Part shown: positions 11,259-12,033 of the stretch, in pieces
Layout of the letters: every line of letters begins with the position of its first letter
Position numbering within the stretch: position 1 is the first letter of the stretch
Source: a virus
Strand: one strand, 5' to 3'
Virus record (IMG/VR): IMGVR_UViG_3300045972_000138
Coordinates: 1 to 64,000 of that record
DNA: 64,000 nucleotides
The notes under the pieces: model-generated
Told to the model about the DNA's origin: nothing
Database searches by the model: none
Seen by the model: the letters and a program-made list of their open reading frames with translations, nothing else
Made by a program: the position numbers and the translations under genes

Positions 11259-11332
11259 GCGGGATTAGTTTAATGGTAAAACGGAACCTTGCCAAGGTTC
11301 ATACAGGAGTTCGATTCTCCTATCCCGCTCCA
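11259..11332 (+). tRNA. tRNA-Gly (GCC)
   Basis: Acceptor GCGGGAT/ATCCCGC, anticodon stem GAACC/GGTTC around TTGCCAA (GCC), T-loop TTCGATT, encoded CCA. The last 20 nt plus 7 nt beyond recur exactly at 12007-12033. Confidence 0.95.
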
Positions 11333-11339
11333 AATTTTA
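11313..11339 (+). repeat. 27-bp direct repeat, left copy (tRNA-Gly 3' end)
   Basis: Identical over 27 bp to 12007-12033. It spans the T-loop, acceptor strand and CCA of tRNA-Gly plus 7 nt of flank. Confidence 0.9.
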
Positions 11340-11355
11340 CTGGAGATATCTTATT

Positions 11356-12003
11356 ATGATTACACATCTTGTTCCTGTATGCTTTTTAGGTGGGTCTGGC
11401 GGCAACTTTCTATCTACATGGATTGCACAGGCTGATGATTCTTCTACTCCGTTAACTGAATTTAGTAAACACGGTAATGCTCACCTTTACAAGAGTAGGC
11501 CTGCTAAGTATTTATTTAATATGTTTTCCGATCAATCTGCTGCTATAGAAAGCCTTAAGTTATATGATAGCGAATTGACTAAACGAACCTTTTCCGATTG
11601 TCACTTAGTTAACGACGCGCAGATATTAGAAAACTTTAATACTTGCATTAAAGTATATTTTGACGTCGACGATATTCCAGATATCGCATATTCGTTTGTT
11701 GGCAAATATTGTATTGACGAAGCAGGTGGCGCAGAAGATTCTGTTACTCTTACTAAGCAGTTTCAAGATCGTTTACTTGTTATAAACGATAAATTTCCTG
11801 GGTTCACTAAACCATTGCCTTCACAGGAAGGGACGCTATCGGTATCCTGGAAAGAGTTAGTGTACCTAGACGCTAATGCGTTAGTTGCTAAGTTATCAAC
11901 ATTCTTATCAATTGACACAGTGAAATTTGATGTTGCTGCTTTATTGAAATGGCGAGAGATTACACTTGCTAGTATTATATCACTTAAATCCGTAATTGTT
12001 TAA
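11356..12003 (+). CDS. sulfotransferase-like P-loop protein (putative)
   Basis: A 215-residue protein. The N-terminal strand-loop FLGGSGGNFLSTWI looks like the phosphate-binding loop of PAPS-dependent sulfotransferases, and the C-terminal SWKELVYLDANALVAKLSTFL resembles the 'YEDL..L..FL' helix pair of that family. The middle is divergent, so substrate and activity are unknown. It begins 16 nt after one 27-bp repeat and ends 3 nt before the other, as expected of a cargo gene added at a tRNA 3' end. Confidence 0.55.
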   Translation: MITHLVPVCFLGGSGGNFLSTWIAQADDSSTPLTEFSKHGNAHLYKSRPAKYLFNMFSDQSAAIESLKLYDSELTKRTFSDCHLVNDAQILENFNTCIKVYFDVDDIPDIAYSFVGKYCIDEAGGAEDSVTLTKQFQDRLLVINDKFPGFTKPLPSQEGTLSVSWKELVYLDANALVAKLSTFLSIDTVKFDVAALLKWREITLASIISLKSVIV

Positions 12004-12006
12004 ACT

Positions 12007-12033
12007 GATTCTCCTATCCCGCTCCAAATTTTA
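12007..12033 (+). repeat. 27-bp direct repeat, right copy (tRNA-Gly remnant)
   Basis: Exact copy of 11313-11339 with no tRNA 5' part in front of it, so it is an attachment-site-like scar on the far side of the cargo gene. Confidence 0.9.

Follow-up and report, generated by a model that had tools for sequence, protein, structure and literature searches.

Based on the comparison of one tRNA array with the same locus in related viruses, it is very probable that a tRNA-Gly(GCC) gene of a large bacterial virus received a 694-bp insertion at its 3' end and that the tRNA was left whole. The DNA analysed here (the window, 64,000 nucleotides) comprises positions 1-64,000 of the IMG/VR record IMGVR_UViG_3300045972_000138, which has a total length of 237,609 bp. 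Since relatives have either an empty site or other genes bracketed in a similar manner, small gene cassettes seem to use tRNA ends as landing spots in viruses of this kind, although no integrase was found. The overall explanation that we regard as the best, giving it just short of an even chance, is insertion at the tRNA-Gly 3' end together with nuclease-aided break and capture. Large phages hold many tRNAs and unusual accessory genes, and the route by which these arrive is poorly understood.

The left border of the cassette is an intact tRNA-Gly(GCC) on the forward strand (positions 11259-11332), detected by ARAGORN and scored at 68.8 bits with the Rfam tRNA model. The last 20 nt of this tRNA and 7 nt of flank form an exact 27-bp direct repeat, GATTCTCCTATCCCGCTCCAAATTTTA, with both copies on the forward strand: the left one (11313-11339) runs from the T-loop through the CCA end into AATTTTA, while the right one (12007-12033) consists of an orphan tRNA-Gly 3' end plus the ancestral flank, with no 5' half. 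Between the copies lie 667 bp of inserted cargo (11340-12006, forward strand; 694 bp when one copy is included), with a single ORF (11356-12003), which confirms the arrangement described in an earlier note on this DNA. Allowing up to three mismatches, no further copy of the repeat was detected in the window, its chance expectation is 0 (none in 100 shuffles), and no other long tRNA-tail repeat lies outside a tRNA in the 237,609-bp record; the exact 27-mer has no match in the viral_contigs collection. The possibility, raised in the same note, that the right copy is part of a decayed full tRNA-Gly was rejected, since the DNA to its left holds no 5' remnant and does not resemble the 5' half of a tRNA (p 0.89 and 0.69). 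An unusual base composition of the cassette was also considered and rejected (its GC content of 0.367 falls inside the spread of the genome).

Relatives of the window were collected with the gene to the left of the tRNA (9689-11116, forward strand; phrog_850, annotated as an RNA-binding protein). Three of them (L127, L129 and L130) have the same gene order with a single tRNA-Gly, no inserted gene and the next gene directly after the tRNA, and thus present the empty site that the earlier note had asked for; L127, which is on the same contig as L005, has 71% DNA identity to the window over the anchor gene. In the window, the start of the first gene past the cassette (12045-12332, forward strand; phrog_25396, 5.5e-7), together with its upstream flank, matches what follows the empty tRNA-Gly in L127. 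When the DNA after the right copy is aligned with this L127 flank, a local score of 58 is obtained (0 of 1000 shuffles), and the same DNA also matches the corresponding flanks of L129, L130, L122 and L124 (p 0 to 0.007), whereas the flank of the left copy (the start of the cassette) matches none of these five flanks significantly (p 0.7 reported). Since it is the right flank, and not the left one, that corresponds to the tRNA flank of the relatives, an addition of 694 bp separated the tRNA end from its ancestral flank.

The interval between tRNA-Gly(GCC) and tRNA-Thr(TGT) ranges from 0.47 to 2.7 kb and differs in content among a dozen relatives and, judging from these sequences, the tRNA-Gly(GCC) locus has changed repeatedly. 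In L125, a radical-SAM gene (PF04055; close to NF033640) lies directly behind the syntenic tRNA-Gly and is followed on its right by an internally deleted tRNA-Gly (with a score higher than that of any random segment tried), after which comes the flank that adjoins the tRNA directly in L123 and L136; no close relatives of this radical-SAM gene were found in viral contigs beyond L125 itself. An oppositely oriented gene of similar size is present in L125, L136 and L210, and matches the glycosyltransferase family phrog_2170 at 1.3e-4 in L210 and at only 0.018 in L125. As a separate observation, most relatives among L121-L135 and L210 have in this interval a nuclease gene whose start resembles a signal peptide, and these nucleases are of unrelated kinds (SNase in L129, Endonuclease_NS in L121, and HNH-like in L124, L210 and the window, at 12329-12793).

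Comparable structures were found elsewhere. Using 1,889 tRNAs, we searched for a second copy of the tRNA tail plus 8 nt of flank (shuffled queries gave 0), and only two strong repeats outside a tRNA were obtained, with 27/28 matching positions each: the one in the window and one at a tRNA-Met of L006, from a 260,723-bp viral record; a weak third match (23/28) is in L143. The L006 repeat encloses genes for a 510-aa radical-SAM protein (PF04055) and a 145-aa ORF, and in neither of the two strong cases is the cargo recognised as a nuclease. When the library was scanned for 3' fragments of tRNAs, 22 candidates were obtained, versus 2 in a shuffled control; some matches of the loose scan are full tRNAs that ARAGORN missed. 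An exact-match scan had made the window case appear unique among its relatives, a view overturned by the further cases from these looser scans. In L124, a phrog_23051-type gene lies between tRNA-Gly(TCC) and a 25-nt fragment, in L132 an HNH-type gene lies between tRNA-Arg(CCT) and a fragment of about 31 nt, and in L041, L061 and L110 an endonuclease-like gene lies between tRNA-Leu and a fragment of about 34 nt. All these nuclease-type genes are antisense. A nuclease is encoded within the inserted unit in L132 (HNH) and, on weak matches, in L124 and L041; for the L124 gene, no close relatives were found in viral contigs beyond itself. At these loci, the fragment does not have the sequence of the intact tRNA, whereas the window copies are identical over 27 bp. 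At the level of sequence comparison, the plan of an intact tRNA, cargo and a tRNA 3' fragment is recurrent in related or similar large phages, and our interpretation is that cargo has been inserted repeatedly at tRNA T-arms.

Genes of phrog_23051 also occur beside tRNAs in cultured phages (loci L217-L220, L224 and L226). They are antisense to, and abut or overlap, the 3' end of a tRNA-Met in Serratia phage BF, three Erwinia phages and Cronobacter phage GAP32, so that the antisense placement against tRNA 3' ends extends over Eneladusvirus and GAP32; in Vibrio phage 2.275.O the adjacent tRNA has the same direction as the gene. PHROGs assigns no function to this family, but some of its members match HNH weakly, which suggests a nuclease. 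Possibly, it is a family of tRNA-linked homing nucleases.

Given that the record is a metagenomic contig and that the cassette was not found in any second genome, a metagenome assembler might have fused two sequences that have a 27-bp stretch in common. We regard such an artefact as very improbable, as 27 bp is shorter than the usual assembly overlaps and comparable structures occur in independent contigs.

The repeat itself is open to several explanations, since integration of a circle by an outside integrase or recombination between two tRNAs would also produce it. In classical site-specific integration, a small circular cassette with the tRNA-Gly 3' end as attP would be inserted by a tyrosine recombinase acting in trans (from the host, a prophage or a satellite), with the complete tRNA as attL and the 27-bp right copy as attR. 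The geometry is indeed that of the integrative elements (genomic islands, prophages and satellites) that use tRNA 3' ends as attB: the identity starts in the T-loop, includes CCA and continues into the flank, the tRNA is reconstituted on one side with an orphan tail on the other and cargo in between, and relatives have empty sites. In addition, a perfect core of 27 bp has the typical size for site-specific integration. Nevertheless, the window cassette differs from such elements in being inside a phage genome, in its size (694 bp, too small for an integrase), and in the lack of an integrase both in the element and, as far as could be found, in the record. As the earlier note had stated, no integrase accompanies the cassette: neither a tyrosine-integrase (PF00589) nor a resolvase (PF00239) domain was detected across the 237-kb record, a metagenomic assembly that is possibly incomplete, and PF00589 had no match in 11 other records, among them the 260-kb record of the similarly structured L006. 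Moreover, the cassettes related to that of the window share no common core, and matching repeats are missing from L125 and from the HNH cassettes, which a single integrase model therefore does not cover. Weighing these points, we consider site-specific integration a possible but unlikely route.

A partial tRNA in a virus genome has been reported for HF1-like haloviruses, where it was interpreted as attP (PMC7230728). In those viruses an integrase gene lies beside the partial tRNA and proviruses are known, whereas in the window no integrase domain was found and both repeat copies are inside the phage genome. Features of other mobile elements were equally lacking, with no near inverted repeat at the junctions and no tyrosine recombinase domain as expected of an integron cassette (the site here being a tRNA tail), and no inverted repeat at the cassette ends as expected of a transposon, the single long ORF matching no Pfam family.

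The insertion may instead have arisen by homologous recombination between the tRNA-Gly copies of co-infecting phages, with no dedicated nuclease. In this case, a donor segment bearing a tRNA-Gly and the cargo gene would recombine with the tRNA-Gly already present, and the extra tRNA would later be truncated. The tRNA-Gly(GCC) of the window seems itself to have been exchanged, because it is 93% identical to an allele present in many unrelated phage contigs (which had been selected by the tail 20-mer, the other 54 nt being unselected) and only 68-77% identical to the syntenic tRNA-Gly(GCC) of its relatives. The same type of exchange is consistent with L125 and possibly L006, where both ends of a second tRNA survive as remnants, and with L045, where two complete tRNA-Gly genes are 705 bp apart. 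On the other hand, the unrelated contigs had been chosen by their tail 20-mer, no donor with the cargo gene was found in the collections searched, and, as the right copy has no 5' half, a clean 5' truncation has to be added. We give this route the same low probability as site-specific integration. Of the proposal in the earlier note, that a gene was integrated or captured at a tRNA end without an integrase, the insertion and the lack of a detectable integrase stand, and site-specific and tRNA-copy recombination carry equal weight.

Homing-nuclease-assisted recombination, which was absent from that note, fits the related loci at least as well. As the engine of nuclease-aided capture we propose, somewhat less firmly than the overall explanation, break-induced recombination helped by tRNA-targeting homing nucleases; the three engines are poorly separated. 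A homing endonuclease, acting in cis (as may be the case in L124, L132 and L041) or in trans (in the window, L125 and L006), would make a nick or break in the T-arm or 3' end of the tRNA, and phage recombination would repair the break, capturing foreign DNA. Selection would then keep the products with a working tRNA, so that the left tRNA stayed, or was made, complete, and the displaced tail with the ancestral flank became the right orphan of 20+7 nt. A pair of staggered nicks 27 nt apart, filled in on repair, would generate the 27-bp repeat directly.

In favour of break and capture, nuclease-type cargo occurs at L124, L132 and L041/L061/L110, a radical-SAM gene occupies the syntenic site in L125, phrog_23051 genes of cultured phages adjoin tRNA 3' ends, and the window encodes two free-standing HNH proteins as well as a RecA-like domain (44062-44814, forward strand; PF00154, 2.7e-12), the latter being the phage's own strand-exchange machinery. 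One HNH gene is at 5020-5448; the other (12939-13358, forward strand; phrog_14736, 1.4e-21) is in the same array, between tRNA-Thr and tRNA-Gly(TCC), in the place taken by a 'RESDEY' gene in L127, L210 and L124, and is our candidate for a homing-type nuclease that could act in trans. Against it, the cargo of the window is no recognised nuclease (the only long ORF of the cassette has no nuclease family match), the nuclease acting on tRNA-Gly is a candidate only, and no second carrier of the cargo gene was found in the collections searched. The 27-bp identity of the window copies also counts against it, being what site-specific or homologous exchange would leave.

Phage precedents exist for the involvement of homing nucleases in tRNA arrays. 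The gene for SegB, a homing nuclease of T4 and T6, lies between tRNA genes (PMC2988022), and according to a second paper the amplification of tRNA segments that SegB drives, together with that of other loci in trans, depends on UvsX, so that a phage homing nuclease can drive the rearrangement of tRNA segments through UvsX/UvsY (PMC13096335). As in these systems, the window cassette is in a phage tRNA array, and the same phage group has HNH-type genes beside tRNA ends. Unlike SegB, which is of the GIY-YIG type, the nucleases here are HNH-type or unassigned and the window cargo is no recognised nuclease; a cassette closed by an orphan tRNA tail is not described for SegB in the excerpts of these two papers (PMC2988022, PMC13096335). 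In HEG-islands, cargo genes are likewise thought to travel with homing nucleases in phages, but these islands are nuclease-flanked and have no discrete boundaries, whereas the window cassette is bounded by tRNA tails and has no recognised nuclease (PMC10448857).

A more speculative extension of break and capture, which we consider rather improbable, is that large phages exchange minimal tRNA-replacement cassettes, in which a nuclease or cargo is physically linked to a diverged but complete tRNA. The nuclease would break the resident tRNA and the incoming tRNA would restore its function. If true, such cleavage and rescue could also transport genes other than nucleases (for example the radical-SAM genes and that of the window) with no need for an integrase. 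More generally, the repeated use of tRNA 3' ends for insertion, whose footprints are empty sites and orphan tails, provides a searchable sequence signature, and tRNA turnover, homing nucleases and cargo gain become linked in one testable model. Orphan tRNA tails in phage genomes need not, moreover, signify prophage integration.

The cargo ORF (11356-12003, forward strand; 215 aa) fills the space between the repeats, its stop codon being 3 nt short of the right copy. The earlier note had called it sulfotransferase-like, a label that stems from inspection by eye of a glycine-rich N-terminus and a C-terminal W-x-x-L-like stretch and that no search, homologue or family backs: there was no match in Pfam, NCBIfam or PADLOC, no significant match in PHROGs or among PDB sequences, and no usable homologue in viral contigs, genome contigs, phage records and 20 viral-contig records. 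A structure prediction from the single sequence had a pLDDT of 35 and was unusable.

Some additional features were observed. Orphan 5' parts of tRNAs lie outside detected tRNAs in L037 (1727-1766; 40 nt, tRNA-Ser) and in L046 (3578-3602; 25 nt, tRNA-Leu). The window also encodes a GGDEF (diguanylate cyclase) protein (1960-3186), a protein with a BLUF blue-light sensor domain (8017-8448) and an 82-aa ORF (13536-13784) matching the PEP-CTERM sorting motif (3.3e-4), which is unusual in a phage.
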